NCBI GenBank assembly: GCA_000697665.1
Contig: KL197735.1
Span: 298,689 to 362,688 of the forward strand
Length of the DNA stretch: 64,000 nucleotides
Source of the DNA: Jaapia argillacea MUCL 33604
Taxonomy: Eukaryota; Basidiomycota; Agaricomycetes; Jaapiales; Jaapiaceae
Direction of reading: 5' to 3'
Numbering within the stretch: position 1 is the first letter of the stretch; the number at the start of each line of letters is the position of its first letter. The position numbers were made by a program, and so were the translations under genes. Under the pieces are notes generated by a model, which did no database searches, was not told the DNA's origin, and worked only from the letters and a program-made list of their open reading frames with translations. This document shows, in pieces, positions 26,339-63,970 of this stretch.

Positions 26339-28822
26339 ATGAGGAAGTGGATACACGACCTTGGTGAGACAACCGGCGACGTACATATTCTTCTCCTCAG
26401 TCAACGATTTCGAATGTTCTTACACGAGGTCCTCACCTGCCATTTCGCGACTTACTTCTACTGATGTGGACTCGATAGGTCCTTACTTCTCTCAAAGTTG
26501 ACGAAGACATGACTCGGGACGCCCTGCGTGATGACGAAGTGCAGGTGCTCGAACTGCTCCAGTCGGTGTTGCGATCAGAGTCCTGCAAAACGGAGGTGCT
26601 GTCGTTGGAAAATGAAAATGCGGAGCGGTTTCTCGTTCTCTTACAGGATGTGAGTCGTTTGGTGCGCTTGGAATTCTCCTGCTGAAGGCATTGGTTTTAC
26701 TCCTAGGTCATTGATAGCTTTCCGATTGATAACGATCTTCGCCATGCAGTCCATCGGCTGTCAATCAAGCTGTCGCAAGCCAGCGAAAAGCTCCCCACCT
26801 CCCTGCTCCTCAGAAGCATCGTCACGTCGAGCGACCGTCACGTTGGTGGGGGAGGGTTCGCCGACATCTTCACCGGAGAATACGCGCAACAGGACGTCGC
26901 GCTCAAACGTTTCCGAATATTTCAAAGTCCACGAGACAAAGTTAGGATAAGAAAGGTGAGAAGAGCGAATCATCCATTGGTTCACGTCTCATTGAATAAA
27001 TCATTAGATGTTCTTCCGAGAGGCCCTAATTTGGCACCGGCTTAGGCACCCGCGAGTCCTCCCATTTCTTGGGATAGATGCGGAATCATTTGTGCCACAC
27101 ATCTGTATCGTCTCTCCGTGGATATCGAACGGTGACATCATGAAATATCTGGCGAGAAATGGACTTGGAAGTTTAAACGCCCATCGAGTGGTTGGTGATA
27201 TCCGTTGGCTGTCGAATTTATAAATGACATGTTTTCTAGCTCACGGAGGTTTCGGAGGGTCTCCAATACTTGCACAAGCAAAATGTTGTTCACGGCGATT
27301 TACGAGGCGTAGGTGTTTGTCTCGGCCGGAAATCAATTTTACCAATCAGTTTGTCAGGGAAATATCTTCCTGGACGATTCTTGCCACGTACTCTTGGCAG
27401 ATTTTGGTCTTTCCAACTTTGTTGATGCAACGCGTATTGCAACCACGGTCCATCGTGATGGCAGCACAAGGTGGATGTCTCCCGAGCTTCTCGCCCCCAA
27501 GAAGTTCGGAATGTCTTTTCGGAGAACGTTTGCTAGCGATGTATATGCATTCGGCTGTGTTTGTTTGGAAGTGTGTATCACCAAAGTGACACCCTCTCTT
27601 CCGACCATTCACCTAATTGACTTTTTCCGTACATAGGTGCTGACTGGAGAACATCCCTTCTCGGATATCCCAAGCGACGGGGACTTTTTGATGGCAGTTC
27701 TCACATCTCAGTCGACAGTACAGCCCACCCGACCAGACCTCGGGGAATGTCTTCGGCAGATGGTGTTGGACAAACTTTGGCCACTCATCCTCCGGTGCCT
27801 TGAACAAGATCCCAGAGACCGTCCTTCCTCATTGTGCGACTTTGGCTCCCTCCCTAAGCTCGTGACAGCAGCAGGCGTTGTGACCACAGAGCCGGAGGTC
27901 AACGTCCCAACTGCCACTCATGGAAGCCAGTTCTCTCTCTCGAATGTTCCTGCTCCCTCTGAACAGCTTACCGACACGAACAAACGCTCGGGAGCCACAA
28001 TTACAGATCCCGGAGACTTTTCAGTCGCTCGTACACCGCCGCCACCTTCACTAGCCGAGTTCCATACACCGGAGAGGCAGCGGATTGAGCCCCGTCCTTC
28101 CATGCTGTGCTCTGACCCCTCCCCTGAGGTTGTGGCGGCAGCCGGCGTTGTGACCATTGAGGGGTCGGGGGTCAACATCCCCACTGCCGCTCATGGAAGC
28201 CAATTCTCTCCCTCGAATATTCCTGCTCCTTCCGTGGGGCTGATTAGCACGCCCAAACGCTCAGGCCCCGCGGACGTTTCAGTCCCTCGTGCACCGTCGC
28301 GACGCTCACCCGCCGAGTTTCATACATCGGCCGGGCGTCGGATCGAGCCCCGTCCTTCCACGTTGTGGGACTTTGACTCCCCCCCTGAGATTGCGGCAGC
28401 AGCCGGTGTTGTGACCATTGAGGAGTCGGAGGTCAACACCCCCACTGCCACGGGTGGAAGCAAGTTCTCTCCCTCGAATATTCCTGCTCCTTCTGTACGG
28501 CTGACTGGGGCATTCAAACGCTCGCGAGCCATAATTATAGACCCCGCAGACTTTTCAGTCGCTCGTACACCATCACCACCCTCCAACAGACGCTTATACG
28601 GCATATTGTCAGAACCCATATATTCGGACTCGAAGCGGCGGCGGCTAATCGATCACCAGTGGTTCTGTGATTTCTGCACTGCCTCGTTTGAAAGGAAGGC
28701 TAGTTTTGACGGTGAGTATTGTACCATGTTACTTCTTTTTCTGATCTATAGAACTGAATTGCCCCTGCAACACAGAGCATGTGAAAAAACATGAGTTGGG
28801 GGTGGGGACATCGTCGCCCTGA
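26339..28822 (+). CDS. K1: TKL-like kinase with C2H2 zinc finger
   Basis: The start is the Met shared by all five copies (M..W.HDL). The kinase domain is spread over several exons: GGGGFADIF loop near 26845, VALK near 26895, HGDLRG near 27290, then GNIFLDD, LADFGL near 27400, WMSPEL near 27472 and ASDVYAFGCVCLEV near 27535. The catalytic Lys, Asp, Asn and DFG are all present. It resembles the agaric-expanded tyrosine-kinase-like group. After the kinase comes a Pro/Ser-rich region with three tandem repeats, then KRRRL and a finger CDFCTASF...EHVKKH whose Cys pair and His pair are split by an intron after 28710. A second finger (PECDQ...RRHWRDVH) lies just downstream but out of frame, so the protein ends at 28822 with one finger. 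It faces M1. Confidence 0.75.
27871..28660 (+). repeat. three tandem repeats inside K1
   Basis: Units start at 27871, 28141 and 28402 (periods 270 and 261 bp, both multiples of three). Each begins AGVVT.E, continues with the NVP/NIP-APS motif, and the first two end with the IEPRPS motif. The other kinase copies carry at most one such unit. Confidence 0.8.
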
Positions 28823-29414
28823 ATGCGATCAAATACTGAGTCGGCAGTCTGACAACCGCCGGCACTGGCGCGACGTGCACGGATACAGCGCTATCAAACC
28901 ACCAACTGAGACTTCGTCGTTTTCCCCCATTTTATTAGCATAGGTGGTCTCAATAATCCCTACACTTCATATGCAGAGTCGGACCTAAGCTGGTTTCTGG
29001 ATCCTTCATGTTGTAAGGAATGCACAGCCCCATAGACATTTGTCCCCCAATCTTGATGTGTATGTATCACATTAGTCGTTATTCTGCTTTTATGTATCCC
29101 TCCAGTCTGGTTAAATTATAGTCGTTGACGTCTTTGGGCTCGATGAACTTGAATGTCCTCAGGAGGAAAAGGGAGGTTAGCATTCAACGAGAAGTATCCT
29201 ATCATAGGGATACTTGTCTAACTTTAACATTTCGTCGTGAGATTCCCAGCATGATATGGATGTTTGAGATGATGCGCATGGAATGAAGGTCGCAGTTGCC
29301 TGAATGGCAAATGCATCCATGAAAGGGAGCAAGACAGATCGTGGAGGGAGTTTTGCGATTAGCTCTGGCTACATACAGGCCTCCACGAGAGGAGATGATT
29401 ACATTGGACCAACA
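28823..29414. other. tail-to-tail spacer K1/M1
   Basis: The first part still encodes the out-of-frame second zinc finger (to about 28930). The rest is 3' UTR of both genes; no other gene is seen. Confidence 0.5.
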
Positions 29415-30446
29415 TCAGTCAAGCGAAGTTCGATGCCCACCCCACCTCCTTCTCGCCCATCGTCTACACCATCTCCCAACAGCATAACAAACCCTCACCC
29501 CACCAACTAATATCCAACTCAACGACAGAGCTCCAAACGCACCCGCTGCTACGTTCATCCCCAAGCCCGAGCCCAGGTTACACTCCAACTCCAGTCCGAA
29601 TTGGTTGAAGGCTAGTCCGAGGTAGTCAATGTTCGGAAAGTCGAAAGGGATAGATTTCGCTGGACGAAGGACGAAGAATCCTTGAAAAGATGCCAGGGCC
29701 GAACGAAGGACCGTCAACTAGATGGTTCGACCTAGGGAAGCGGTGGAGGAAAAACCTAGCGAGATGATCGTCCTGAGGAATTCGGGCTTGGGACGCTTAG
29801 CGTGACTCGAAGTCAAGGTTAAGGTCGAAGTCGATTTTATAATGGGAAGGCAGTGGTGGGAGTGCTTTCTCGAATGTTTGATGTACGCTTTGACGAGCAC
29901 ACCAGATGTGATGAGGTCGATGGTGGCACCTCCGATGGCTCCTACCACTCCTCCCGACAAGGGATTCGGAGGTGTGTGCACCAGTCCGGTATCGCGAAAT
30001 GCGATGTATCCGTATAGCGCGTACACTCCACATAGGAATGAAGTGATAGGAAGGAGAAGTGTGAGCGCTCCAGCGTAGAGCCTGAGTTTTTGGAGGAAGT
30101 TCGGTCTGCAATTCTTGCATTTTCTAGGTAGATCGTGAGGTTCGTCGAAGGGGTGGGAAAGAGAGCTCGGGGTAGGAGGGGTTTCGAGAATCCGAATCTG
30201 TGCCTGGATGAGAAAGAGGAGGGAGAGCAGAGGATCCTGGCGAGTTGGACTCGGGGGTGGAGGTTCCATGTTAGGAAGACTTTTTCTATGGGGAGGATGT
30301 GTCGGTTTGGTTGTGCAGTTGGAGTTGCGGGTTGGCGGGAGATGGAGAGGAAGTAGGGGTTGGTGGGGGTTGTTTGGGGATTGGGGAACAGCTTGGGTTT
30401 GGAAGTTGAGGTTTTGGTGGGGGTTGTGTTGATTGTGGTAGGACAT
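29415..30446 (-). pseudogene. M1: proline-rich multi-pass membrane protein with one stop
   Basis: A single uninterrupted frame of about 343 codons runs from ATG 30446 to 29415 except for one TAG at 29715-29717, where copy M2 has TGG (GRTMWLTVLRS). The N-terminus is Pro/Asn/Gln-rich. It is followed by KCKNC, then hydrophobic segments LYAGALTLLLPITSFLCGVYALYGY, GGVVGAIGGATIDLITSGVLV and GAFGALSLSWILVGG (quoted in part). These predict three or four membrane passes. No known family was recognised. It is the most complete member of the M family; because only one codon breaks it, it could be a young null allele. It converges on K1. Confidence 0.6.
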
Positions 30447-31680
30447 GGTGCTGAGTGAGCGAGGGTTTTGCGGAATGGGTGTCAAAACCAGCCAGTCAAA
30501 GTGTTGAGGCCGAGGTACCAAGATAAGACGTCAGAAGGTTGGAGGCCAAAGCGCTCAAAGCTTGACGAGCGAAGTCAACGTCTTCGCTTTATGGTTCCTG
30601 CATGAACCTCGGGCAAAGCTCACGGGTCTCCCGGGTAATTAGATCGTCCCCGTGGAATAGAACAAAACAGGGTCTATTCAGGCGAGGAGAAAACAACGCT
30701 GTGCAAAGCAGCTTGGGGGCCAGTGAAACTGAAGTCCATTGCCATCGATGACCGGTTGGTGGATGTGGACTCTCCATCGGAGCAAGGCGCGCAGGGGCAT
30801 CAGGTGGTTTGGTTGGGGTGCGACGTGTCAAATTACTGTGGGCGAAGAACGGAGGGACTATGACCTAGTCTCTGCGATCCACTCTATTAGGGCACCTGAC
30901 TCTTGACCTTGAAGGAGCCTGGAGATTTGGAACCACGCAGTACGGCGGAGAATTCAGTTCGAAAGCAACGGATAAACGGTGGTGGATGATGCACACGGAT
31001 GTTCGAACGCCTCGGAGGGGTAATTGTATACATGCTCTGGCACGTGACGCGAACACTCTGGTGATTCGAATGAGGATTGAGATCTATTGTATGGCAAATT
31101 GAGATTTGAAATTTGAACGCTGTCCAACTTATCTGGGTCTCCCGGCCAACCTCAGTCTGAGGCCGAATCAGCCTTGACAGAAAACTTGCTTGAAGTTCCA
31201 CGATGCGCGCTCGACTTCTGATACTTGCTGGAGCCAAATGGCGTGTGAGCTAAAGCGCCCGACACTGACGCTGAACCAACAAGTTTGTGCAGTGCTACAC
31301 TGCTTTGAACTCTCAAGCTGTGCACACGCATCGACATAGCGACTTCGAGTGTTCCCAAGTGATAATCCATCGGATTCCAATGTCCTCCCGAGAAAACACC
31401 CAATTCTCGCCAGCGGTTCAAATCTCCCCTGAGCGATACCTGAGCATCATCACATTTCCATCCTTGTATCGGGTGAGCGCATCAGTCCTCACCAACATCT
31501 TGAAACATATGCATCTCCCCTCGCTCATTCCACTGCCACGATCTAGAAATGCTCCTTTCTCGCAGTCGGTCAATTGATGAATGTAGCGGCGCCCGTGGCG
31601 TCTGATGATCGTATAAGGTCGGTCTCCATACGACACTCGACTTATTCCCATGCGCTCAGGGACGCAGATATGTCCGTCTT
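30447..31680. other. gap between cassettes 1 and 2
   Basis: The part to about 30800 is the M-gene upstream block, shared with M2, M3 and M4 (for example TTCGCTTT.ATGGTTCCTGC and GTCCATTGCCATCGATG). From about 31320 it is the K-gene upstream block (CACGCATCGACA). The middle shows no gene. Confidence 0.5.
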
Positions 31681-33603
<1,923 letters not shown>

Positions 33604-34030
33604 CTCCCATTTCGTTTGCAGAGGTGGCATGGACTGTGCAAGTGTCCTTGTTCGACAATCTTCATGTATATGTATCACACAGGTCGTTATTCTGCTTTCG
33701 TGTATCTCTCCGAGAAGTAGTTGAATCATACATGGCGACATTATTAGGCTCGATGAACTTGGATCTCCTCGGGAGGAGGGAAGTTAGCGTCCAACGAGGA
33801 GTTTGCTGTGTCCTAGGGAAACTTGTGAAGGGAGTGTTACATGGGATGTACGGATGTCAAGGTGTATGCTCTGGTCTGACTGTACTCTATAAGAGCATTT
33901 CGTCGGGGCACCCCAGCGCGAACATTTGAGACGACAGACAGGGAGCAAGACAGATCGTGGAGGGAATTTTGCGAATAACACTCTAGGTACATGTCTCAGG
34001 GAGAAGAGATGATTTTGCACCAAACATCAA
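33604..34030. other. tail-to-tail spacer K2/M2
   Basis: Spacer of about 430 bp; sequence around 33620-33790 matches the K1/M1 spacer (GTATGTATCACA, CGATGAACTTG). No gene seen. Confidence 0.5.
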
Positions 34031-35054
34031 TCAAGCGAAGTTCAAATGCCCACCCCACCCCCCCCTCGCCCATCGTCTACACCATCTCCCTACAGTATAA
34101 GAACCCTCACCCCACCAACCAGTATCCAACTCAACGACAGAGCTCCGAATGCTCCCATAGCGACGTTCATCCCCAAACCCCAACCCAAGTTCCAGTCCAA
34201 CTCCGACCAGAGTCCCAATCGGTTGAAGTCTAGTCCGAGGTGGCGGACATTTGGAAAGTCGAATGGGATAAATTTTGCTAGACGAATAACGAGGAACCCC
34301 TGGAAACCTGCCAATGCTGAACGAAGGACCGTTAACCACATGGTTCGACCCAGGGAAGGAGTGGAAGAAAAATCTAGAGGTAGTATCGTCCCAAGGAATT
34401 CGGGCTTGGGACGCACAGCGTGACTCGAAGTGGAGGTTAAGGTCGAAACCAAATTTGTAATGGGAAGGGAGTGGCGGCAATGCTTTCTCGATTGTTTGAT
34501 ATACGATTTGACGAGTACACCAGATGTAACGAGCTCGATGGTGGCACCTCCGATGGCGCCTACCACTCCGCCTAACAAGGGATTCGGGGGTCCGTTCACT
34601 AGTCCGGCATCGTGAAACGCTGTGTATCCGTATAGCGCGTACACTCCACATAGGAAGGAAGTGACGGGTAGGCGAAGTGCGAGCGCTCCGGCGTAGAGCC
34701 CGAGTTTTCGGAGGAAGGTTGGCGCGCATTTCACGCATTTTACATGTGAATCGTGAGGGTTTGTCGAAGGGGTGGGAAGGGAAGCTCGAGGTAGGAGAAG
34801 TTTCGAGACTGCGAGTTTGTACCTGGATGAGAAAGAGGAGGGAGAGCGGAGGATCTTGGCTAGTTGGGCTCCGGGGTGGAGGTTCCATGTTAAGAAGACT
34901 TTTTCTATGAGGAGGATGTGTCGGTTTGGTTGTGAAGCTGGGGTTGCGGGTTGGCGGGAGGCGGGGAAGAAGTAGGTGTTGGTGGGCATTGTCTGGGAAT
35001 TGGGGAACAGCTGGAACTTCGGAGTTGGGACTTTGGTGGGGGTTGTGTTGACAT
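34031..35054 (-). pseudogene. M2: membrane protein copy, frame-broken
   Basis: The open stretch 34989-34090 (299 codons) holds the whole membrane part: KCVKC, GVYALYGYTAFHDAGLV, GGVVGAIGGATIELVTSGVLV, MWLTVLRSALAGFQGFLV and GAFGALSLSWILVGG. The proline-rich start (ATG 35054, MSTQPPPKSQ) is in another frame, and the last segment (VGRWCRRWARGGWGGH) shifts frame as well. Compared with M1, at least two small indels are needed to explain this. A shorter protein starting at 34989 (MPTNTYFF) would still contain all membrane segments. Upstream to about 35640 the sequence matches the M4 flank. Confidence 0.6.
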
Positions 35055-36819
35055 GGTGGTGAACGAGTGAAGATTTTGTAGAGTGGGTGTCAAAGCTAAC
35101 TGGTCAAAGTGTAGAGACCGAGGTACCAAGCTTAGGACGTCTGAAGGTTGGAGGCTAAAGCGCTAAAAGCTTGACGAGTGAAATCAAGGCTTTCGCTTTG
35201 ATGGTTCCTGCGCACAAAGCTCAAGAGCCCCCTGGGCGATCGGACCACCCCAGCGGAACGAAACAAAGGAGAAGCTCTCGAGCTGAGGAGAAAAAAAAGC
35301 TACGCGAAGCAGCTTGGGGCCCGGGGGCAGTGAGACTGACGTTCATTGCCATCGACGGATGTGGATGCATCAGTGAAGGCTCGGGTGGGAGCAGGCGCGC
35401 AGAGGCATGGATGGATTGGATGAGGCGCGACTAGGACGTTGGGTACCGACGCTGGTTAGGGACGGACCGCCCACGAACCTGTCGACCGCAGCTGCGGGTA
35501 GGATCAATAACCTGACAGTTCCGGAGTACGCCCTCAGAGGGGGGGGGCAGTGTCGTCGTGCCACTTCCAGACCGCTTCGTTGAGAATCTTCATCCCATCA
35601 TCTTGAAGCAGTTTTAGATAGCGAGGGAACTGAGTTCACGAGTTGCCAGCGAGTCCAGCCTCATGATTACGAGTCCAACTCAAAGATGCGGCCACGAACA
35701 TATACCACCGACACCACGGAAATTTTCATGCATTTATCGCTTTGGACACAACTGCTCAAATGCCTAGGTCAAATGTGTTGCGGTTGCCAGCGAAGATGTA
35801 TGAGGAGAGACAGCCTGAGGATGGATCATCTGGGTAGACTTGGGGTAGACACGTTGCGGTCGAAGTCCTATGGCCGCGGCCCGCGGCCGTACGTCTCGCG
35901 GCGCCGCGAGGATCGATTCGGGGACTTGAAGTTGAAGAACCTCCCAACAATCCGACACGGTGACCTAAACCTTTCGTCTCCATCCTTCTCTACTAACTGA
36001 CTTACCCCTCGTGATGCAACGAACAGAACGATAGACTAGATGAGGGGGACCTCAAGACCCACTACCATCACCGAAGACATACACCGCACACTGTGGAGGT
36101 TAGCCTGCGGCACGTTCAACACCAGGCTCCGAGCCACACAGTCCGGCATAGACGGAAGTTGAACCAATGGCAACAGCTGCGCAGCGCAGTCTGGCCTGCT
36201 ATACCCGCCTGAAGTGAGCTACTAAGATACATAATATTCGGTGAATCTGCATCGTTAATGTTCACACCCATTGCCAAGCCAGCGACGATCAGGATCAGTC
36301 CAATGACGGCCCGGGCATTATCACGGTCCATTCGCACCAGTATTCGACAGTCGTTTCACCTTTACAAGCAAAACCCAACCTCGGAGACAACTCTGACCGG
36401 TGGCAACGCCGGCCACACGTCCCCTCGTGGAAATTGATTCTTCGTCCTGGGTTTCTTCCTCCCAAATAATGGAATTATACATATTTTTTTCCGAGCAACG
36501 TCCACTGCGTTGTCCAGGTCACCATGCGTTTACTGGCTATTTCCGATTCGAACTATTCATAGATCAAACAATCAAGGTGCATAGCAGTGTATACTCTGCG
36601 CATTTACCAAGATCCTTCGAACCAGTCCGTCTTTTTGATCTCGTGACGCCCACATGTTCGACAAGAGCTGCGGTTATTATGCTGCCAGGAGACTGCGCTT
36701 ACAGCCTCTCGATAGCTGCGGACGTTTCGTTGGTGCCGGGTTAGCGGCCCCCATCGAGGAGAACTTCCGTAAGGTTGGATCTTTGGCTGTTTTGCGGTTC
36801 CAAAAATATGCCCTGCAAA
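35055..36819. other. gap from M2 to the first peroxygenase
   Basis: The segment to about 35640 is the duplicated M-gene flank; it ends with a stretch (CCATCATCTTGAAGCAGTTT) that recurs inverted near 51160 beside M4. Beyond it the sequence is single-copy. No gene is supported; GC palindromes lie at 35872-35910. Confidence 0.45.
35872..35910. repeat. two GC-rich palindromes
   Basis: 35872-35888 (GGCCGCGGCCCGCGGCC) has perfect 8-bp arms, and 35895-35910 (CTCGCGGCGCCGCGAG) is a perfect 16-bp palindrome, only 6 bases apart. Confidence 0.75.
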
Positions 36820-36825: not shown

Positions 36826-36868
36826 AGGCCATCTTGCAAAAGAGCTCCAATCATTGTCCTTTTGCAAG

Positions 36869-38578: not shown

Positions 38579-39057
38579 TTATGACGACTTGTCGGACTTT
38601 CTACACTGAGAACAGACTTGGACTATTCATTTTACACCTTGTGGACATTGAGAACTCCCGTACTCTTTCTACGTTGTTGGCTACTTCGCGGAGGTCCGTC
38701 GCTGATATAGACAAGTGCACGATTAGAATAGAATCTGCAACTCGACAAGCTAGTTCTTTTCGATCAAATACTCTGTTAGACTCTGGACCTCGCGTTATGG
38801 TAGTGGGATATGGTGACGAAGTTGAAGCCTAATCGCACTCGTTAAGCAGGAGGTGCAACGTCAAGGCCTCCATACATGAGACGGAATTGGGTTATTGTCC
38901 GTGGAACATCGCGGCGTCCTTCGAATAATTGACTGCAAACTAGCTCGGCCAGTCTCTCTGGAGGATGTTCTGCAATTGCTGAAATTCCGGGGAGGGGGAT
39001 TCGAATCGAATCAAAAGGCCGGCGGGGGATTGGTGGTCGATGCAATGTGACAGCAAG

Positions 39058-45767: not shown

Positions 45768-46800
45768 ATGTCAACACAATCCCGATCGTCCTAACATGGA
45801 ACCTCCACCCGAGCCCAACTCGCCAAGATTCTCTGCTTCCCATCCTCCTTCTCGTCCAGGCACAGATTCGGATTCTCGAAACTTCTCCTACCCGATCTCC
45901 CTTCCCCACGCCTCATGATCCATATGTGAAATGCAAGAATTGCACATCGACCCCCCTCCGAAATTCGGGCTCTACGCCGGAGCACTCGCACTGCGTCTAC
46001 CTATCACTACATTCCTATGTGGAGTATACGTGCTGTACGGATATCTGGCGTTTCACGATGCCGGACTAGTGAACGCGCCCTTGAATCCCTCGTTGGGCGG
46101 AGTGGTGGGCGCCATCAAAGTGGTCTCCATCGAGTTCGTTGCATCTGGTGTACTCGTCAAAGCGTACCTCAAACATTCGAGAAACCACTGCCACAACTGC
46201 CATCCCATTACAAATTCGGCTTCGACCTTAACCTCGCTTCGAGTCACGCTAGGCGTCCCAAGCCTGAATTCCTCAGCACTGGGTGCAAAGACTGATTGTA
46301 GGCCTCCAAACACTGTCCGAAAATTCTCCAAACATTGAGAATCCTCGATGTTCTTTGTGTGTTTTGTGGATTGATGACTGTTCTTTATATGTTTTGGTGA
46401 TGTGCCGTTGCCGAACATCATTCATTGCACCCAGTGCAGAACGATCCTACCACTAGACGTTTCCTCCACTCTTTCCCTCGGTCTAACCATCTGTTTGACA
46501 GTCCTTCGTTCGGCCCTAGCAGGTTTCCAAGGATTCGTCACCATCCGTCTGGCGGGGTCTATCCCGTTCGACTTTCCGAACATCATCCACCTCGGACTAG
46601 ACTTCAACCGATTCGGACTCCGGTCGGAGTTGGACTGGAACTTGGGTTGGGGTTTGGGGGTGAATGTGGCTGTGGGTGCGTTCGGAGCTCTGTCCTTGAG
46701 CTGGATATTGGTTGGTGGGGTGAAGGTTTGTTATGTTGTTGGGAGATGGTGTAAGAGATGGGTGAGGGGGTGGTGGGGTGGGCATTTACGGTTCGTTTGA
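45768..46800 (+). pseudogene. M3: membrane protein copy, broken and MITE-inserted
   Basis: Start ATGTCAACACAATCC matches M2 and M5. The frame is lost early, then recovered at KFGLYAGALALRLPITTFLCG, GGVVGAI and FVASGVLVKAYLKHSRN. A 160-bp element interrupts the sequence after 46276. The second half (LTVLRSALAGFQGFVTIRL to GAFGALSLSWILVGG) resumes after the insert and ends at 46800. Several frame breaks plus the insertion make it non-functional as a full protein. It faces K3. Confidence 0.7.
46277..46436. mobile_element. 160-bp MITE with 12-bp terminal inverted repeats
   Basis: The ends CACTGGGTGCAA and TTGCACCCAGTG are perfect inverted repeats. CAG flanks both sides (46274-46276 and 46437-46439), a 3-bp target duplication, and copy M4 has the empty site. 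A CACT start with a 3-bp duplication resembles CACTA-type elements. There is no coding capacity. Confidence 0.85.
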
Positions 46801-47151
46801 CCCATGTATGGTACAAAATTCCACTTGTTGATAAGTCTACGTGATATACACACCATTATCACAACTATGCGACCAAACATTCCATTCCTTCAGAATAATA
46901 TCATCGACGAAATTCTCCTTTAGACACTCAAGAATTAGACCAGAGAGAGTTCCAAACTCGCGACGCCCTAGCATCGATAGGATGCTATAAACTTATGGTC
47001 GGAAGATGTCAGGATCATACTCCCCGCCTCCCCAGTTCATCAAAAAGTCATCATTGGTACTTCCAGGATACGGTGGTGGAGGGTCGATACTGATAGATGA
47101 TGTTTGACTGGGTGGCTCTGCATGGGTAAAACTCAGTAATAGTCACCACTA
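46801..47151. other. tail-to-tail spacer M3/K3
   Basis: The first 120 bp (CATGTATGGTACAAAATTCC and the following GATATACACACCATTATCAC) are nearly identical to the M4/K4 spacer and similar to the M5/K5 spacer. No gene. Confidence 0.55.
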
Positions 47152-49353
47152 CTAACGAAATGGGGACAAACGATCTTCGATGGCTGACGTAGAAGCACTT
47201 TCTCTATGCATATTGCGCATGTGTCGGTTGAGGTCGCTCTTCTTAGGGAATGTCTTGTCGCATTGATGACAAGGAAATGGCTTCTCCTCAGAACTAGAGA
47301 TCGAATCACAGCCCGATTGTATCATGTGACCTATATGGCAAGTGCAGTTCAGCTCCATAGACCAGGAAAGAAAGTTGACCAACTATGATACTCACCGAGC
47401 AAATCGTTTCTCCGACTGAATGATGCTCCGCAAATGTCGCGGCACCACCGTGTCTGTTCCGCTGGACCCTTATCCTGATCATTTCTGTCTGCAAAATGAG
47501 TGTGAATACTGGGAACTTTCCAATCCAGTCGATTCACGTAACTCAGGCCTGGTGTCAGGGTCTCACCGGTCTCCACTCCTGTTATGACAGAGGGCCGCCA
47601 ACTCGAATTGGTTCGAAGGGGCAATGAATGATATCTACGATGGCCGAGGAGGGATAGTGGCAATATATCGGTTGTATGGAACAATTGGACCGGCTGAAGA
47701 TATCTGCCAGTGGGTCGTTCAGACGGAGTGGTAATGATCGAGAGTGAACCATCGGTTCCACCAGTGACAGTGGGGTTCTTGACCTCCGGCGTTGCAGTCA
47801 CAACGCTAGCTATAACCATAAGCTCAAGGAGGGAGCCACCCTCGGACAACGTGGAAAGACGGTCTCTGGGACTTTGTGCAAGGCACTGGAGGATGATTGA
47901 CCAAAGTTTGTCCAACACCATCTGCCGAGCAGGTTCACCGAGGTCTGGCCGGGTGGGTTGCATGGCCAACTGAGATGTGGCAACCGTCATCAAAAAGTCC
48001 ACGTCGCTTGGGATATCGGAGAAGGGTCGTTCTCCTGTTAGTACCTAGGTACAGAAAACGTCAACGGGATGGACGGTCGGAAGAAAGGAATATCGATTTA
48101 GTAATACCCACTTCCAAGCAAACACAACCAAATGCATACACGTCGCTAGCGAAACTTCTCTGAAAAGATATTCCGAACTTCTTGGGGGCGAGAAGCTCGG
48201 GAGCCATCCATCTCGTGCTGCCATCACGATGCACAGTGGTCACAACTTTTGTTGCGTCGGCGAAGTTTGTAAGACCGAAATCTGCCAAGAGTACATGGCA
48301 GGAATCATCCAGGAAGATGCCGGCCTAACAAACTGATCGGTTAAGATTGACTTCGGCTAGCAGAACTTGAACACCTACACCTCGTAAATCCCCATGAACA
48401 ACATTTTCCTTGTGCAAGTATTGGAGACCCTCCGAAACCTCGATGAGCTAGAGACTATACTCATTATCAACTCAGCAGCGAATAGATGTCACGAACCACT
48501 CGATGGGCGTCCAAGCTTCCAAGCCCATTTCTCCTTATATATGCCATGATGTCACGGTTCGCAATCCACGGAGCGACGATACAAATATATGGCGCAAACG
48601 ATTCTGCATCAATACCAAGAAAAGGGAGGACTCTCGGGTGCCTAAGCCGGTGCCAAATTAGGGCCTCTCGGAAGAACATCTAATACTCGAGCTATTCAAC
48701 GAGACAGGAAGCAACACATGAATCGCGTCATCTCACCTTTTTCACTCTGACTTTCTCTTGGAGACCTTCAAAGATTCGGAGCCGTTTGAGTGCGACGGCC
48801 CGGTGCGAGTATTCTCCAATGAAGATGTCGGCAAACCCTCCCCCGCCAACCTGACGGCCGCTCGACGTGATGACTCCTCTGAGGAGCAGGGAGGTGGGGA
48901 GCTTTTCGCTGGCTTGTGACAGATTGATTGATAGCCGATGGACAGAACGGCGAAGCTCATCATCAATCGAAAAGTTATCAGTGACCTATAAAATCAATGC
49001 CTTCAGCACGGGAGTTCCAAGCACACCCAAGCCACCTACATCTTGCAAGAAAACCAGAAACCACTCCGCGTTTTCGTTCTCCAACGAAAGCACCTCTTTT
49101 CTGCTGGATCCCGATTGTAACACCAATTGGAGTCGATTGAGTATCTGCGCTTCGTCATCACGCAGGGCGTCGCGAATGATGCATTTGTCAACTTTGAAAG
49201 AGGTGAGGACCTATCGACTCAATAGTCAGTCGAAGCAAGCCGCAGGAAATGGTGAGCGAGGACCTCGTGTAAGAACATCCGAAATCGTTGACTGAGGAGA
49301 AGAATATGTATATCGCCGATTGCTGCATGAAGGTCGTGTATCCACTTCCTCAT
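47152..49353 (-). CDS. K3: kinase-zinc finger protein, catalytic Asn lost
   Basis: The start is the shared Met (49353). Exons carry DDEAQILNRLQ, GGGGFADIF, VALKRLRIF, HGDLRG, LADFGLTNF, WMAPELLAPKKFG and ASDVYAFGCVCLEV. At the exon after HGDLRG the codons read Ala-Gly-Ile (48325-48317 on this strand) where the other copies encode Gly/Glu-Asn-Ile, so the Asn that helps bind metal is a Gly. It may be a pseudokinase. The linker is shorter than in K1. The first finger is degenerate (CRDICGASF without a proper second His), but the second, PCHQCDKTFPKKSDLNRHMRNMH (quoted as two parts: PCHQCDKTF and LNRHMRNMH), is complete. No frame break was found in the kinase or finger exons. Confidence 0.75.
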
Positions 49354-51749: not shown

Positions 51750-52688
51750 ATGTCCAACGACAATCAACACAATCCCCACCGAAATCCGAACTCCCCAGTC
51801 CCCAAACAATGCCCACCAACCCATACTTCTTCCCAGCATCCTACCAAACCTCAACCCCAACTTCACACCAAACTGGCACATCCTCATTGAAAAAGTCTTC
51901 CTAACCTGGAACCTCCACCCGGAGCCCAACTCGCCAAGATCCTCCGCTCTCCATCCTCTTTCTGATCCAGGCACAAATACAGATTCTCGAAACTTCTCCT
52001 ACCCCGATCTCCCTTCCCCACCATGATCCACATGTGAGATGCAAGAACTGAACACCATCCTTCCTCCGAAAACTCGGGTTCTACGCCGGAGCTCTCGCAC
52101 TTCGCCTACCCGTCACTTCATTCCTTTGCGGAGTGCACGCGCTATACGGGCACCTAGCGTTTCACGACGCCGCGCTTAGTGAATGCATCCCTAGATTCCT
52201 TGTTGGGTGGAGTGGTAGGTGCTAACGCGGGTGCCACCGTCGAACTGTTCGCATCTGGTGTACTCGTCAAATCGTTCATCAATCACTCGAGAAAGCACTG
52301 CCACTACCATCTCATTGCAAATTCGGCTTTGACCTTAACTTCGACTTCGAGGGGTCCCAAGCCCGAGTTCCTCAGGACGATCCTTCCTCTAGATTTTTCC
52401 TCCTCTCCTTCCCTAGGTCGAACCATGTGGTTGACGGTCTTTCATCTAGCTCTAGCAGGTTTCCAAGTCATCCTCCGTCTGGCAGAATCTATCCCGTTCG
52501 ACCTTCCGAACATCATCCACCTCGGGCTAGACTTCAACCAATTCGGACTCTGGTTGGAGTTGGACTGGAACTTGGGTTGGGGTTTGGGAGTGAATGTAGC
52601 TACGGGTGCGTTCGGAGCTCTGTCCTTGAGCTGGATATTAGTTGGTGGGTTGAAGGGTTGTTATATTGTTGGGAGATGGTGTAGGTGA
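51750..52688 (+). pseudogene. M4: membrane protein copy, frame-broken
   Basis: The N-terminal part is out of frame in several places. From 52179 a frame of 169 codons keeps GGVVGANAGATVELFASGVLV, MWLTVFHLALAGFQ, LDWNLGWGLGVNVATGAFG and SLSWILVGG. The upstream half reads FYAGALALRLPVTSFLCGVHALYGH in another frame. It has the empty site for the MITE found in M3. At least two frame breaks separate it from M1. It faces K4. Confidence 0.65.
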
Positions 52689-53145: not shown

Positions 53146-55398
53146 TCAAGATCTTATTTCTCCACAGCTGGTGGCCAAGGATCGATAGACATGGGACTCG
53201 GTGGCTCTGAAAGTACAAAAATTAGTAATGTCAACGCTACGAACGAAGTGGGGGGACAAACGAGATCTCATAGAATCTAGGTCTCCATGGCTATAGCGCA
53301 CGTGTCGGCGGTGGTCGCTCTTCGTGTGGAAGCTCTTGTGGCATGTATCACAGAAAAATGTCAGCGTGTGACACCACTTGTGTTCTTTATGGCAGGTGTA
53401 GTTCAATCTTACAGACCAAGAAAGAAAGGTGACCGACTACGATACTCACCGATCATACTCCACGGTGGGAATGAGACATCGCATACTTCGCACCGTAGCA
53501 GGGACTTCTCCGATGGTTCCTCCCTGATGGAGCCCCCGTGGTGTGGTCTTGTATCGTGAGGCGAAGACCAAGCGCTGAGCCATTCCAACGTGGTTACCGC
53601 TCCGGAGGAATCAACGGGATTTATACATATCACATTGCGGAAATCCAGTCCTGGCACCAGGGTCTCATGATTTTCTGCTGCTATGACCGCGGGGAGTACA
53701 CTTGACCCAAATGACCCGCCCGAACCGTAATGAGCGAGTACAGAATCCGCTTGACGTCTTGTGAACCACTGTAGTGCCGATGTATCGGCGACAGCACGGC
53801 TTAACTGGGTGAACAATGTGGGGATCTCGACCTCAGGTTCTGTGGTCTCGATGCCGGCTGTCGTCACAAGATCAAGGAGGGAGCCACAATCGCACAACGT
53901 GGAATGACGGTCACCAGGATATCGGGCAACGCAGAGAATGATAAGTGGCCAAAGTCTGTCCAATATTACCTGCCGAAAGCATTCACCGAGGTTGGGTCTG
54001 GTGGGCTGGATAGTTGACTTGGATGTAGAGAGTTCCATCAACAACTCCCCCACTTGTGGGAACTCGGAGGAAGGTTGCTGCCCTGTTAACACCTACAGAT
54101 AGGGTCCACAGGGTGAACGGTCGGAGACGAAGGACATCGCTTTGGCAATACGCACTTCCAAACAAACGCAACCAAATGCGTAGACATCGCTAGCAAAAGT
54201 TCTTCGAAAAGGCATGCCAAATTTCTTGGGGAAGTGAAGCTCGGGAGACATCCATCTCGTGCTGCCCTCGTGATGTTCAGTGGTCGCCACGTTTGTTGCG
54301 TCGGCAAAGTTTGTGAGCCCAAAATCTGCCAAGAGTACATGGCAGAAATCATCCAGGAAGATGTTCTCCTAACAAACGGACCGGTTAAGATTGATATCGG
54401 CTAGAAGAACTTGAGCACTTACACCTCGTAAATCCCCATGAACGACATTCTGCTTGTGCAAGTATTGGAGACCCTCCGAAACCTCGGTGAGCTAGAGATC
54501 ATATTTGTTATCACATCGGCAGCAAATAAATGACACGAACCACTCGATGGGTGTCCAAGCTTCCAAGCCCATTTCTATCCATATATGTCATGATGTCACG
54601 GTTCGCCATCCATGGAGCGACGATACAGATGTGTGGCCCAAACGATTCTACATCCATACCAAGAAATGGGAGGACTCGCGCGTGCTTAAGCCGGTGCCAA
54701 ATTAGGGCCTCTCGGAAGAACATCTAACACTCAAGTTTTTCAACGAGACTGTAAGTGGTCTGTGCATCGTCTCCACTTCTCACCTTTTTGATCCTAACTG
54801 TCTCTTGTGGACATCGAAAGATTCGGAGTCGTTTGAGTGCGACCTCCTGATGCGCATATTGTCCAATGAAGATGTCGGCAAATCCTCCCCCGCCAACATA
54901 ACTGTTGTTCGATATGATAACGCCTCTGAGGAGCAGGGAGGAGGGGAGCTTTTCGCTGGCTCGCGACAGATTGATTGATAGCCGCTGCATAGCGCGGCGA
55001 AGGTCATCGTCTATAGTGAAGTTAGAGTCTTTAACGCTTGTGCCTTCAGCAGGAGAGACTTGAGTGGGCCCCAACCACATACATCTTGCAAGAGAACGAG
55101 AAACCCCTCGGCATTTTCATTCTCTAATGAAAGCACCTCTTTTTTGTGGGATTCCGATTGTAATACAGATTGGAGTTGATTGAGTATCTGTGCTTCGTCA
55201 TCACGTAGGGCGCGGCGGATCGTGCCTCCGTCGACATTGAGAGAAGTAAGGACCTATCGACTGTATAGTCAGCAGAAGTAAGCCGAGGGAAATGACGGGT
55301 GGGAGGACCTCGTATAAGAACATCCGATATCGTTGGCTGAGAAGCAGCATATGTATGTTGCCGGTCGCCTCACCAAGGTCATGTACCCACCTCCTCAT
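53146..55398 (-). CDS. K4: TKL-like kinase with two C2H2 zinc fingers
   Basis: From the shared Met (55398, MRRWVHDLGEATGNI) every kinase exon is open: GGGGFADIFIGQY, VALKRLRIF, MFFREALIWHRLKHARVL, HGDLRG|ENIFLDD, LADFGLTNFADAT, WMSPELHFPKKFG and ASDVYAFGCVCLEV. Lys, Asp, Asn and DFG are all kept. After a linker of about 180 residues two fingers follow: CEVCDVSF...EHKWCH, split by an intron, and CDTCHKSF...RRHVRYSH. The C-terminal tail is longer than in K3 and K5 because the stop that ends those copies is shifted out of frame. It is the most intact kinase-finger gene of the window. Predicted role: a signalling kinase able to touch DNA; this is inference from domains. Confidence 0.8.
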
Positions 55399-56189: not shown

Positions 56190-59060
56190 GTAAAAATTAG
56201 ACCGAAAGCGACGGCTCAATGAGCACGTCGGGTTCGCATGAGGTGTAGGTAGTGGAAATTAAGAAGCGATAACCACTCACGAACGCTCTTGCAGCGATCG
56301 TGATGGTTGGAAGGACAGGGAGAGGGAGGTGGAGTGGTGGGTTGTGGGCTGGTTCGGATGTTGCAAACGGGTGGGTGGGTGACAAGGCTGCCTTGCAGCA
56401 TGTTGGAATCATCAGGGGGGTGGAGATAGGGTCGCAGGGTCGGTAGAAAGACCTGAAAGCGAAAATAAGCGAATTAGTCAATATAATATTTAGAATTGAT
56501 TTTTTCACTGACCTGTGGCCCGAATCCATGTACTCTAATCCCATTTACCCTTCGCTACATCCCTATAATGAACGCATTTCGTTCTGGATGAGAGCGAACG
56601 CACTTGAGGTGAAGAGGATGGAATGGGGCAGCTAGGCGCGGAGGCGAAACTTCAAACGAGATTGACACTTCTCTGAGAGAGTTGGTTCGTGTGAGTCGTC
56701 AGTGGTGATAGAAAGAAAAGAGAACCAGTCACGATCGTGATTATGCTGATTGTGACGGTTGTAGGTGAGAGGGAGGGAGGAGGGGACTTCGGTGAGTTGA
56801 GACGAACCCAGCGAATGGGTAGGGCGGCCGTGGGGCAGCACTCTGTGGTCCTCGAGTGGTAGATGAAGGTGGAGGTGGGGATTTTGAGCTAGTAGAGAGA
56901 CCTAAAAAGCGATTAAACCGAAAATAAACAAAGAATCAATTGGCTTTAATTACCTTGAAGCAGCAGCCTCGTTCTTCTACTCTCCTAACAATCCACTACT
57001 TCGTTATGTTGAACACAGGCCATTAAATGAGAGGGTGAGAGGGTGAGAGGCGAGATCAGAGGGGAGGGTTTGACGTTCACGAAGTCGAGTATAGGAACGA
57101 AACAGATGGCGCAGAGAGCGCGTCGGTTTGTGGAATTGTGGATGGTTGAAAATAAGATGAGAAAACCAATCGCGAACGCTGCAGGAGCATTCGTAATGGT
57201 CATGAAGAGAGGGAGGGGGGTGAGATGGGTATGGCGTCCGGCTGGTTTGTGGGTTGGGAATGGGTAAGCTGGTGGTGGAGTAGCACCCCATGGTGATGAA
57301 GTGGTAGATGGAGGTGGCGGTGAGGCTGTTGAGCTAGGAGAAAGATCTAAAAAGCGGAAGGAAAGGAAAATGAATCAAAATGAATCAAGGAATCAGAGTG
57401 TTTGACTCACCGAGAGCCCGTAACCTCAGCCTTCTAGTCTTCTACCAATTTGCTACTTCCGTATGTTGAATGCCCTTTGTTAAAGACAAGGGCGAGGGGG
57501 CTTGAGACGAGATCGGAGGGGAGGGTTTGATGGCTGCGAAGTCGATAATAGGAGCGAAAGCGACGGCTCAAAGGAGCGCGTCGGCTTCGTAAAAGGTGGG
57601 GGTAGTTCAGAGTAAAATGAAAAACCAATCACAAACGCTCTTGCGGCGTTCGTGATGGTTTCGATGAGAGGGAGAGAGAGGGGTGGATTTGGATGTATTG
57701 GGACTAACCCAGCTAAGCGAGTGCTTCGCTGGGGTTCGCCGGGGTTCGCTGCTGGTCCTTCAAGAGTGGGTGGTGGTATGTGACCACCTGCGAGGGCAGC
57801 GTTGTCGTGTCCCGAGGGGTATAGGGGCGGGGTAGGTGAGGTCAAAGTCAAAGTCGAAGTTGATTGTGGGGGTGGGTGAGATCCGGGCGGTGGTCCGGTA
57901 GTGTTTTTTGGGGTCCCAAGAATGATATAAAATCAAAAAGAAACAGGCCAGGCCACCGTGGAGGCTGCCTGATAATCATGAGGGAGGGAGGTGGAGTGGC
58001 CGGCAGGGGAGGCTTGTGGGTGACTTCGGGTGTTTCAAACGTGCTGATGGGCGACGGGGTTGTCTCACGGCGCGGTAGATTGAATAGGGAAGGTGGGGAT
58101 GAGGTGGTGGGTTGGTAGAAAGGCCTGAGAGTGAAAAAAAGCGAATTAGTGAATATAATATTTGAAATCGAATTTTTTACTCACCTGGGATGGTGTACTC
58201 ATCCTGTGACTCCCTCTGACCGTTCCCTACATCCTAATAGTGAGCGCGCATCGATTTGGACGACCACGAGGAGGTTTGAGGCGAGGAGGGGCGGAATTAG
58301 GTGGCGGTGCACAGAGTCGAAAAGGCAAGCGAAACCAGTGCCCTTAGTGAAGGCGCCGGTTCGCATGAGGGGTTTGGGGTGTGGGGTCGTAAATAGTAGT
58401 AGATAACCCATCACAACCGCTACAAGAGCGATTGCGAGGGTGGGAAGGTAGGCGAGGGAGAAGGTGGCTGGGTGGGTGGTTTCCGGCTGTTTGAACGGAC
58501 GGGTGGGTAGCTCTGGTGCTTCGCAACACGCCGGAGTGGCCAGGGAGGGTGGGGTTGAGGTGGCGAGGTTGATAGAAAGACCTGAAAGCGAAAAAAGAAG
58601 GGAATTAGTGAATATGATAGTTAGAATCGATATTTTACTTACCTGGTACCCTGATACTCCTCTTGAAACACTCCTTGGCCCTTAATTCCATCGCTGTGAT
58701 GGATAGATCTCGTCTTGAACGAGAGCAAGGAAGTTGAAGAGCGAGTGGGGGTGGAGTCGGGTCAGGCTCGCAAAGTCCAAAATGCAGATGAATCTGGCAT
58801 CCTCAATGAGGACGCCGGTTTGCATGAGATGTCAATGGTCATGTAGAGCTGGAAATAACCCGTCGAGATGGCACTTAGGGCATTCGTGACGGATGGCAGG
58901 TGGGAGAGGAGGAGTGGATGGATGTTGGGTTGATTTGGCAGCTCGGCTGGTAAAAAAGAGAGGTGGGGGGGTTATCCTGATGCTCAGGGAGGATGAGGGA
59001 AGGTGGGTGTGGGTGGGTGGAGGTGCTGCAAAGACCCAAAAATAAGGCAAAATTTTTCGA
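56190..59060 (-). repeat. tandem array of about seven exon-like repeats
   Basis: A unit of about 450 bp recurs. Its marker, an intron-like stretch ending CACTAATTCGCTTTTTTC.CTTTCAG then GTCTTTCTA on the minus strand, or its variants, lies near 56445, 56893, 57330, 57900, 58113, 58570 and 59030. Most units read on the minus strand as a Pro/Ser/Thr-rich segment followed by a hydrophobic stretch (for example LAIALVAVVMGYLLLF or ITIAARAFVSGYRFLI) and then CEP/KP residues. Splice-like signals are kept, but frames are interrupted. It is either a decayed tandem family of small single-pass membrane proteins or one gene with repeated exons. The unit near 57.9 kb is rearranged. Confidence 0.55.
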
Positions 59061-59524: not shown

Positions 59525-60314
59525 AACATTTTTGATCACATGGAATGTTGACTTGTGTTACGATGATCAACGTTTCAACACTAAAGTAACTAATCACTCT
59601 ACTTATCACCCTCTAGCAATCTCTTCGGTACACACTCTGGCATACTGACACTCTGGCGGCTCTGGCACACTGGCGGCCAGCACTCCAGGGCTGTCAGAGC
59701 GTCAGAGATTTGTGAGAATGCTGATGTCGATGTGTGTAAACAGAGTTGTGAGCAAGATCCCGATGGTTTAGTACCAGCATGAGCGGTTGCTATGTACACC
59801 ATACACTTGCTACGGCGCCGCCTCCCATGCACAATATTCATAGACAGGCCATGTTCTGTATATGGATGCACATCGCATTTGGCCCACAAGTGATGAAGCG
59901 CCCGTTGTGATGGTGACGATGACATTCAAGTTTACGAGCAGGTTCAACTTGTTCAGATTACAAACCCCACCCCCACCGTAAGCTGCAGGTCCGCAGGAGC
60001 GGCGCATATGATACTTGTTAAAACAATCCAGTGAACATCGCATTTGGCATAGGGCCCAAGTGCAGATGCGTGAGGTACAACAAGCGACTACAGTGCTTAT
60101 ATACCATAAACCATAGTTTATTTGTTCCCCAAGTCCCAGGCCAACTTTCTTTCTAGCTTGTCGTGAATCATCTGCTCTGCGCTACCCACTGGCAAGCGCA
60201 ACGCTGTTATAAACCTGTGCAACCTCCGGACGTCTCAGTACCTCGGCCTCTACACTTCAGTTTGACTCGTTGGCTTGGACACCCACTTTACAAAACCTTT
60301 TCTCGTTCACCACG

Positions 60315-61149
60315 ATGTCGACACAATCCCCACCGAAATCCAAACTCCTAAGATCGAGCTTTTCTCCCAATCCCCGAACAATATTAATGCCCACCAATCT
60401 CTACCTCCCGCCAAATCCCAACCCCAACCCCAACATCATAGCCAACCCGGCACATCTTCCTCACAGAAAATGTCTTCCTGACATCGAACCTCCACCCCGG
60501 AGCCCAACTCGCCAAGGAGCTCTCGCACTTCGCCTACCCATCGCTTCATATTTATGCGGAGAGTACACGCTGTACGGATACCTTCCATTTCACGATGCCG
60601 GACTAGTGAACGCACCGCTGAATCCTTCTTGAGCCGAGTGGGTAGGCGCCATCGGAGGTGCCACCATCGAGTTGATGACATTTAGTGTATTCGTCAAGTC
60701 GAGCATCAAACTTTCGAGAAAACACTGCCGCCACTGCTATCATCCCATTACAAATTCGGCTTCGACCTTCACCTCCACTTTGAGAGGTCCCATGTCCCAA
60801 GCCCGAATTCCTCAGGACAATCCTAACTTTTGATCTTTCCGCCGCCCCTTCAGGTCGAGCGATCTGGTTGACTGTCCTTCGTTCGGCCCTCGCACGTTTT
60901 CAAGGATCCCTCGTCATTCGTCTGGCCAAACCCACGGCGCCGGACTTGAGCAACGGGTTCGGACTCCGGTCGGAGTTGGAGTGTGACTTGGGTTGGGGTT
61001 TGGTGACGAGTGTAGCAGCGGGTGCGTTTGTCTCTTCGTCCTTGAGTTGGATATTACTGGGCGGGGTAAGGGTTTGTTATGCTTCCTGCAGGCTAGGTAG
61101 ACGATGGGTGATGGAGGTGGGGTGGCCATTTGGGGTTCGTTTGACTTGA
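60315..61149 (+). pseudogene. M5: membrane protein copy, deleted and frame-broken
   Basis: The start (MSTQSPPKSK) and proline-rich region are in frame and lead straight into GALALRLPIASYLCG, because about 130 bp present in M1 (including the CxxC part) are missing. The frame stops at LNPS (60630-60632). Later parts (GAIGGATIELMT, LTVLRSALARFQGSLVIRL, WILLGGVRV) are in other frames. It faces K5. Confidence 0.65.
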
Positions 61150-61771: not shown

Positions 61772-63970
61772 CTAACGAAATGGGAACAGACGATGTCCGA
61801 TGGCTGACGTAGAAGTACTGTCTCTATGCACATTGTGGACGTGTCGGCTGCGGTCGCTCTTCCTAAGGAATATCTTGTCGCATTTACGACAAGGAAATAG
61901 CTTCCCCTCAGACTTTGCGTGAGTTGCCCTGTGATCTATACGGCAAGTCCAGTTCAGCTCTATGGATCAGGAAAGAAAGGTGACCAACTATGATACTCAC
62001 CGAGCAAATCTTTTTGCCCACTGAATGATGATCCACGAATGTCACAGTACAACCGCTTCTCTTCCACTCGACCCTTATCCCGATCACTGAAGTCCTCGTC
62101 ATGATTGGAAATACTGGAAATACTGGGAACTATCCCATCCAGCAGATTCACGTACCTTAATCCTGGTGTCAGGGTCTCACCGATCGCCGCTTCTATTGTG
62201 CCAGAGGACCAGGTTCGATTCATAGTGGGCACTGAATCGAAAATACGAGAGTGGCGGTGGGGTAGTGTCTGTATATTGACAGGTGCGGGGTCTGGGGGGA
62301 AGCCCAGGCGAGATCTTCCGACGGTGATTTGTTGAGAAGGAGTCGTACTGACCGAGGGTGAACCATCGGTTCCACCAGTGACAGTGGGGTTCTTGACCTC
62401 CAGCACTGCAGTCACAACACTGGCTGTCATTACGAGCTCAAGGAGGGAGCCACTCTCAGACAATGTGGAAGGACGGTCTCTGGGGGCTTGTGCAAGGCAC
62501 CGGAGGATGATTGGCCAAATTTTGTCCAACACTGTCTGCCGTACAGGTTCACCGAGGTCTGGCCGGGTGGGCAACTGAGATATGAGAACTGCCACCAAAA
62601 ATTCTAAGTCACTTGGGACATCGGAGAAGGGTCGTTCTCCTGTTAGCACCTAGGTGCAGAAGCAGTCGGCGGGATGAATGGTCGGAAGAAAGGAGTAGCA
62701 ATTTGGTATTACACACCTCCAAGCAAACACAACCAAATGCGTACACGTCGCTAGCGAAGGTTCTTCGAAAAGACATGCCAAACTTGTTGGGGAAGTGAAG
62801 CTCGGGAGACATCCATCTCATGCTGCCATCATGACGTACGGTAGTCACAACTTTGGTTGCGTCGGCGAAGTTCGTAAGTCCGAAATCCGCCAAGAGTACA
62901 TGGCAGGAATCATCCAGGAAGATATTTCCCTAACAAACTGATTGGTTAAGATTGCATTCGACTAGAAGAACACCTACGCCTCGTAAATCGCCGTGAACGA
63001 CATATTGCTTGTGCAAGTATTGGAGACCCTCCGCAACCTCGGTGAGCTAGAGTAAATATTCACTATCAAGTTGACAGCGAATAGAGGCCACGAACCACTC
63101 GATGAGCGTCTAAGCTTCCAAGCCCATTTCTTCCCAGATACGTCATGATGTCACTGTTCCGTATCCACGAAGAGACGATACAGATGTGTGGCGCAAATGA
63201 TTCCGCATCTATCCCAAGAAATGGGAGGACTCTGGGGTGCTTAAGCCGGTGCCAAATTAGGGCCTCCCGAAAGAACATCTAAAACTCAAGTTTTCAACGA
63301 GACTGTAATTGGTCTATGCATCATCTCAACTTCTCACCCTTTTGATCCTAACTTTCTCTTGTGGAGATTGAAAGATTCGGAGCCGTTTGAGTGCGACATC
63401 CTGATGGGCGTATTCTCCGCGGAAGATGTCGGCAAAACCTCCCCCGCCAATGTGCCTGTCGTTCGATGTGACGACACCTCTGAGGAGCAGAGAGGGCGGG
63501 AGCTTTTCGCTGGCTTGCGACAGATTGATTGAGAGCCGCTGGACAGAGCGGCGAAGATCATCATCTATAGGAAAGTTATCGATGACCTGCAAAAAGGACA
63601 AACAACGTTAACGTTAACGCCTTCGGCAGAGACCTAGGTGAGCCCAAACCACATACATCCTGCAAGAAAACGAGAAACCGTTCTGCATTTTCATTCTCCA
63701 ACAACAGCACCTCTTTTTTGCAGGATTCTGATTGTAACACTGATTGGAGTCGACTGAGTATCTGTGCTTCGTCATCACGCAGGGCGTCGCGAATAGTGCC
63801 TTCGTCAACTTTGAGTCCGGTAAGGACCTGTCGACTCAATAGTCAGTCGAAGTAAGCCGCCGGAAATGATGGACGAGGACCTCGTGTAAGAACACCCGAA
63901 GCCGTTGACTGAGGAGAAGATTATGGATGTTGTTAGTTGCCTCACCAAGGTCGTGCATCCATTTCCACAT
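61772..63970 (-). CDS. K5: TKL-like kinase with C2H2 zinc finger
   Basis: The shared Met is at 63970 (MWKWMHDLGEAT); upstream exons, if any, lie outside the window. The kinase exons are open: GGGGFADIFRGEY, VALKRLRIF, HGDLRG|GNIFLDD, LADFGLTNFADATKVV, WMSPELHFPNKFG and ASDVYAFGCVCLEV, with Lys, Asp, Asn and DFG kept. A linker of about 180 residues follows. The first finger has lost its second Cys (CDIRGSSF...DHRATH). The second, PCRKCDKIF...SRHVHNVH, is complete. The end RLFPFR-stop matches RLSPFR-stop of K3. It is probably functional. It faces M5. Confidence 0.78.

Follow-up and report, generated by a model that had tools for sequence, protein, structure and literature searches.

A 64,000-nucleotide stretch of the Jaapia argillacea MUCL 33604 genome (contig KL197735.1, positions 298,689 to 362,688; hereafter the window) carries five copies of a pair of convergent genes. 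One gene (K) encodes a kinase with a C2H2 zinc-finger tail; the other (M) encodes a putative membrane protein. Why has this pair been multiplied, and do its two genes work together? An earlier note, made from the letters of the stretch, proposed that they may. The reading favoured here, with somewhat better than even confidence, is that a fungal TKL-type kinase gene with a C-terminal C2H2 tail has gone through lineage-specific birth and death in this array, and that M is a passenger which is now decaying.

Array layout

Self-comparison of the window (self-blastn) reveals five copies of one ~4.5 kb unit within 26.0–64.0 kb, the same five K–M units that the earlier note had described. They extend over 26.0-30.8, 31.3-35.7, 45.3-49.7, 51.1-55.7 and 60.2-64.0 kb. 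In each unit K lies tail-to-tail with M, which is found on the opposite strand 3' of K. Units 1 and 2 are ordered K(+) then M(-) and units 3 to 5 are ordered M(+) then K(-); the array is therefore made up of two tandem sets in opposite orientation. K-like DNA occupies 26025-28.0k, 31328-33.2k, 47.7-49.7k, 53.8-55.7k and 61.5-64.0k, and M-like DNA 29.3-30.8k, 33.9-35.7k, 45.3-46.9k, 51.1-52.9k and 60.2-61.5k. Local alignments between units are at most 2.5 kb long and mostly 71-89% identical (a few short ones down to 67%), which is far beyond chance. No further convincing copy of K or M is found in the window by tblastn with K3 and M1 as queries; the best extra matches have E 0.009 at 24.7 kb (M1) and E 0.29 at 17.3 kb (K3).

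The gap between the 3' ends of K and M is ~350-620 bp in units 1, 3, 4 and 5, where both ends can be fixed; this is about the range given in the earlier note. The proposal that the pair moved as a unit with its flanks is also supported, as homology continues for ~300-350 bp upstream of K wherever the window end does not cut the unit (four units); upstream of M it covers several hundred bp in units 1 to 4 and is slight for M5. Segments chosen upstream of M agree at 72-75% among units 1, 2 and 3, and at 44-60% in comparisons that involve unit 4 or 5. The spacers, likewise described as duplicated, are so within each set and not between sets: over a comparison segment that takes in intron 7 and exon 8, identity is 61.5% for pairs 1 and 2 and 73-83% among pairs 3, 4 and 5, while left and right spacers are 48-52% identical, close to unrelated sequence. 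One spacer of each type is delimited as follows.

28823..29414: spacer of pair 1, between 3' ends; left type, common to pair 2 only
46801..47151: spacer of pair 3, between 3' ends; right type, common to pairs 4 and 5

An assembly artefact, in which contigs or haplotypes were duplicated or collapsed, had been raised as an alternative. Nothing was found in its favour, and it is excluded for practical purposes: the copies are mostly 11-29% different, they carry their own lesions, indels, linker repeats and, in one case, a miniature inverted-repeat transposable element (MITE), and they lie in both orientations, interleaved with non-repeated sequence.

The kinase gene

K has eight exons and introns of ~48-70 nt, with GT-AG boundaries in the accepted models (five-copy comparison). 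Exons 7-8 of K1 and intron 2 of K4 were modelled by explicit splice-site choice. The models agree with the K coordinates of the earlier note.

26339..28822, plus strand: K1, kinase–C2H2 gene of 8 exons coding for 698 aa, open; has finger 1; finger 2 shifted out of frame
31681..33618, plus strand: K2, pseudogene; TGA in exon 4 (32370-32372), 8-nt deletion in exon 6; 3' end placed by alignment projection
47152..49353, minus strand: K3; 600 aa, open; catalytic-loop Asn changed to Gly (HGDLRGAG); finger 2 canonical
53146..55398, minus strand: K4; 618 aa if intron 2 uses the weak GTGGTT...AAAG pair, otherwise frame-shifted
61772..63970, minus strand: K5; 595 aa, open; second Cys of finger 1 lost

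The projected model of K4 is broken by a 7-nt deletion at the usual intron 2 acceptor. The start codon of K5 is 30 bp from the window end. The linker of K1 contains a ~261-bp tandem repeat (a multiple of three) in about three copies (27819-28583), which is not seen in the other K genes.

The kinase and zinc finger claimed for K are both borne out by Pfam. Three full-length proteins were submitted (K1, K3 and K5), and all match the kinase-domain profiles PF07714/PF00069 with E 8.3e-37 to 1.4e-32. By eye, the VALK Lys, the HxD Asp, the loop Asn and the DFG motif are all present in K1, K4 and K5, which retain the loop form HGDLRGxN; the catalytic set is incomplete in K3 due to the Gly in place of the loop Asn. 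Of 2578 PDB sequences, the 60 that match K best are for the most part RAF and TNNI3K kinases; one EGFR construct heads the list. No repressor domain or nuclease-like part is recognised in K by Pfam. Judged by these matches and motifs, K is a TKL-like kinase with a C2H2 tail. The pooled ratio of nonsynonymous to synonymous substitution rates (dN/dS, or omega) is 0.27 in frame versus 1.21 and 1.40 in shifted frames, and kinase-domain values range from 0.22 to 0.41 in the six pairs of K1, K3, K4 and K5; the substitution pattern indicates that the K kinase has been under purifying selection.

The finger tail

The zf-C2H2 profile (PF00096) has a curated cut-off of 25.2 bits. This is exceeded by K3 (33.2 bits, 6e-08) and by the finger piece of K2 (40.2 bits, 3.5e-10); the K4 finger piece falls under it at 21.2 bits, and K1 and K5 show weak matches to related models only. 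By eye, K1, K2 and K4 have a canonical finger 1, which is C2HC-like in K3 and short of one Cys in K5 (Cys to Arg). A canonical finger 2 occurs in every copy but K1, where it is out of frame.

One explanation for this variation, which appears rather improbable, is a diversifying recognition family. Here a constant kinase would carry a finger tail that tracks changing targets, either DNA (foreign or from transposons) or allelic self/non-self partners, much as KRAB zinc fingers and other recognition arrays do. In their exon-8 tails K3 and K5 differ by ~20 nonsynonymous and 2 synonymous changes (19.5 and 1.5 unrounded), compared with 61:52 in the kinase (Fisher p=0.0008 on rounded counts); however, this pair was picked post hoc, after inspection of the data, and an omega above 1 for its tail taken alone is not significant (p=0.16). 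In finger 2 (26 codons each), dN exceeds dS in five of the six pairs of K2, K3, K4 and K5, the exception being K4-K5. Finger 1 does not follow this pattern: its one usable pair, K2-K5, has a dS of 1.26 and a dN of 0.57, whereas K1-K2 and K1-K5 have reached saturation in dS (K3 and K4 left out). Linkers and finger state vary among copies, and MITE and terminal inverted repeat (TIR) elements are present in the array, which would suit a diversifying family; finger loss, on the other hand (the K1 frameshift, Cys to Arg in K5, C2HC in K3), fits simple relaxation. The stretch is short, the copies are few, and conversion may have cut dS in the tail. The tail pattern may reflect relaxation, positive selection or conversion that lowered dS; five copies cannot separate these.

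The membrane-protein gene

The M copies are as follows; lesions were scored in the aligned core against M2.

29418..30530, minus strand: M1; in-frame TAG (29718-29720) splits the frame into 29721-30530 and 29418-29717
34093..35103, minus strand: M2; the one membrane frame without interruption, 337 codons between stops
45919..46797, plus strand: M3; two 1-nt frameshifts (deletions) plus a 160-bp MITE-like insertion
46277..46436: MITE-like insert in M3; 160 bp, terminal inverted repeats CACTGGGTGC, 3-bp target duplication CAG
51750..52688, plus strand: M4; TGA (52049-52051) just upstream of the aligned core, 1-nt insertion near 52170
60213..61146, plus strand: M5; large internal deletion (junction near 60515), TGA (60630-60632), 2-nt frameshift

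Within the aligned core, M5 has the TGA, the 2-nt deletion and in-frame deletions; its larger deletion lies upstream of the core. At the end of M2 there is a late 1-nt difference, and its last residues are frame-shifted relative to the other copies. The five facing gene pairs of the earlier note are present as units, but they are not equal, since K2 and the majority of the M copies have been disabled by lesions. A high sequencing error rate is unlikely because K1, K3 and K5 are open across ~1.8-2.1 kb of coding sequence. Nonsense substitutions and a transposon insert also differ from the indels that sequencing errors usually leave.

Over the central and C-terminal parts of M, the membrane frame has a pooled omega of 0.40, versus 0.85 and 1.17 in the shifted sense frames; single pairs give 0.29-0.55. 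One antisense frame also has an omega of 0.44; this is read as the mirror of the sense signal. The N-terminal part has no clear codon periodicity, with omega of 0.78, 0.54 and 0.92 in the three sense frames. On the evidence of its substitutions, M was once a real membrane-protein gene under purifying selection. In the M2 core, coding constraint among the sense frames is confined to the 337-codon frame.

M2 contains two long overlapping open reading frames (ORFs) of 352 and 337 codons, in different frames, at 34031-35103 on the minus strand.

The description of M as a membrane protein holds: it is hydrophobic, M2 has four hydropathy peaks, and the AlphaFold model of M2 has four helices, predicted with low confidence (mean predicted local distance difference test score 53). 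A search for a known family gave no Pfam match above cut-off, no NCBIfam match and no PDB sequence match at E 1. Two scans of viral contigs found no relatives.

Probable exchange between units

The grouping of the copies differs along the unit. In the 5' halves of K, copy 2 groups with copy 3 (support 95) and copy 4 with copy 5 (100); in the segment comprising the spacer and exon 8, copies 1 and 2 are set apart from copies 3, 4 and 5 (100). Resolution is poor in the other segments, with supports of 47 upstream of K, 73 and 49 in the membrane part of M, 38 and 43 upstream of M, and 90 and 43 in exon 8. K2 and K3 have an identity of 0.90-0.93 over K3-local positions 1050-1850 versus 0.74-0.88 upstream, a conversion-like tract. 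M3 and M4 are 88.8% identical over a 490 bp stretch versus 83.6% across the whole membrane segment. From these comparisons, the history of the array is read as mosaic evolution via exchange between units, not as five intact joint lineages.

Relationship between the two genes

None of the five pairs has both genes clean. In pairs 1 and 5, K is open and M is broken. Pair 3 has an open K with the changed loop residue and a broken M; in pair 4, K is open only via the weak splice site and M is broken. Pair 2 shows the reverse arrangement, with K2 broken and M2 open, so that the single open M adjoins the single clearly dead K. Distances among K copies and among M copies are uncorrelated over the ten pairs (r=-0.07, p=0.61; Mantel test, all 120 permutations). 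Due to the lesions and the lack of correlation, a joint function is not adopted, and the earlier suggestion that K and M may work together, for example as membrane sensor and nuclear-acting kinase, is not upheld. The pair was probably copied jointly by proximity and not kept as a working partnership.

The same suggestion can be put in a wider form: a functional two-gene module of membrane sensor and nucleus-acting kinase, in which the lesions reflect the loss that redundant copies usually undergo and functional pairs exist elsewhere. This is unlikely, although it has the most to recommend it of the alternatives considered. The pair was duplicated jointly, the convergent layout is present in all five units, and M was constrained in the past; however, tail-to-tail linkage is preserved by duplication alone, and an open M is found beside a dead K only. 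A further point in favour of the module comes from a yeast trap, in which a Laccaria protein with a Coprinopsis TKL-ccin kinase as its best match activated reporters and is placed among 'unconventional activators with nuclear localization'; the authors caution that the nuclear localisation signal of the vector can give false positives (PMC5604158). This result hints that such kinases may act in the nucleus and goes no further.

Several points weigh against the passenger reading of M. The Mantel test covers five copies only and is swayed by the decayed outlier M5; the absence of correlation is partly an absence of signal, as the M tree is poorly resolved (73, 49) and M5 is outlying. Constraint on M continued after the first duplications, which implies that several M copies worked for a while beside K; a joint function that disappeared only recently, or that persists in copies outside the window, would agree with this. 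Several K copies have degenerate fingers, and finger function is putative. In addition, the gene models are built solely from comparison between copies.

A birth-and-death kinase array with M as passenger would have arisen in the following way. Tandem and inverted duplication produced the five units, and ectopic exchange between them would have reshuffled their pieces. M would have been copied along because it lies within the same ~4.5 kb unit as K. K would be a Ser/Thr-type kinase of the mushroom TKL kind, located in the cytoplasm or the nucleus, with redundant copies. We infer that it phosphorylates targets brought by its C2H2 tail through DNA or protein binding, and that the kinase is retained while the fingers change quickly. 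M would have been useful at the time of the duplications, presumably dispensable for K, and would now be disappearing one copy after another.

A more elaborate scheme is highly speculative. It proposes a fungal recognition system: fast-diversifying C2H2 fingers would direct a constant TKL kinase, and the convergent four-helix membrane protein would be its upstream sensor or antagonist. The array would then be a factory for finger specificities, which would be generated by duplication, ectopic conversion and linker-repeat change; membrane partners would be discarded as specificities change.

Surroundings of the array

Twenty ORFs of the window were submitted to Pfam. To the left of the array (9932-12213 and 15086-15598) are ordinary genes, matching GHMP kinase, Cys/Met PLP enzyme and aspartyl protease. 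A duplicated gene lies between the two sets, at 36865-38579 and 40624-42330, with 66% identical DNA (self-blastn); the ORFs at 36.9-38.6 and 40.6-42.3 kb show weak Peroxidase_2 matches below the Pfam cut-off. Also between the sets, at about 43-45 kb, there are ORF pieces which by eye resemble citrate synthase (candidate). A 396-bp palindrome at 39589-39984 is 82% self-complementary and possibly MITE-like. A 997-bp element between K3 and M4 (50041-51037) is bounded by terminal inverted repeats of ~154 bp (83%), with what looks like a 6-bp target duplication, ATGTTC. The region 56143-58681 contains diverged internal repeats with strong GC skew; two minus-strand ORFs within it and one just beyond have no Pfam match.

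Comparison with known systems

The TKL-ccin kinases of Coprinopsis and Laccaria form an expanded family. By description, they and K are alike in being mushroom-type TKL kinases. In the table of PMC5604158, the TKL-ccin entry has a kinase-like domain alone, unlike K with its fingers.

FslK is a fungi-specific kinase lineage close to tyrosine kinases (TKs), which is reported to be expanded in Agaricomycetes with recent species-specific duplications (PMC3937382). FslK and K share a TK/TKL-like kinase domain with DLR..N and RWM(A/S)PE-type motifs. Only 16 of 241 FslK members have any additional domain, and the main text of PMC3937382 does not contain the term 'zinc finger'; K, in contrast, has a C2H2 tail. 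K1 has the motifs DLRGGN and GSTRWMSPE, and compared with the definitions in PMC3937382 the TK-diagnostic DL(R/A)A(A/R)N and XP(I/V)(K/R)W(T/M)APE are absent. As these residues are missing from other TKL kinases too, their absence offers weak support for FslK membership.

Other systems resemble K in single features. C2H2 transcription factors, including KRAB-type arrays, have C2H2 fingers, clustered paralogues and changing finger helices. K shares the fingers, the clustering and finger change; it differs in having at most two fingers, which are joined to a kinase, and no Pfam-recognised repressor domain. The Spok spore-killer genes of Podospora are fungal, multi-copy and contain a kinase-like domain. 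Pfam shows no nuclease-like part in K. Full-text literature searches, judged by the titles and abstract starts of the papers listed, found no description of a kinase–C2H2 fusion and nothing on the convergent K–M layout.

Kinase and C2H2 fingers in one protein are an unusual combination, and the remaining novelty of the locus is the fusion with fast-changing fingers. The pair also carries a caution: neighbours that are duplicated jointly are not evidence of joint function. Five local copies that conserve the kinase and vary the fingers would make it possible to ask whether fungi evolve targeted kinases by finger replacement.

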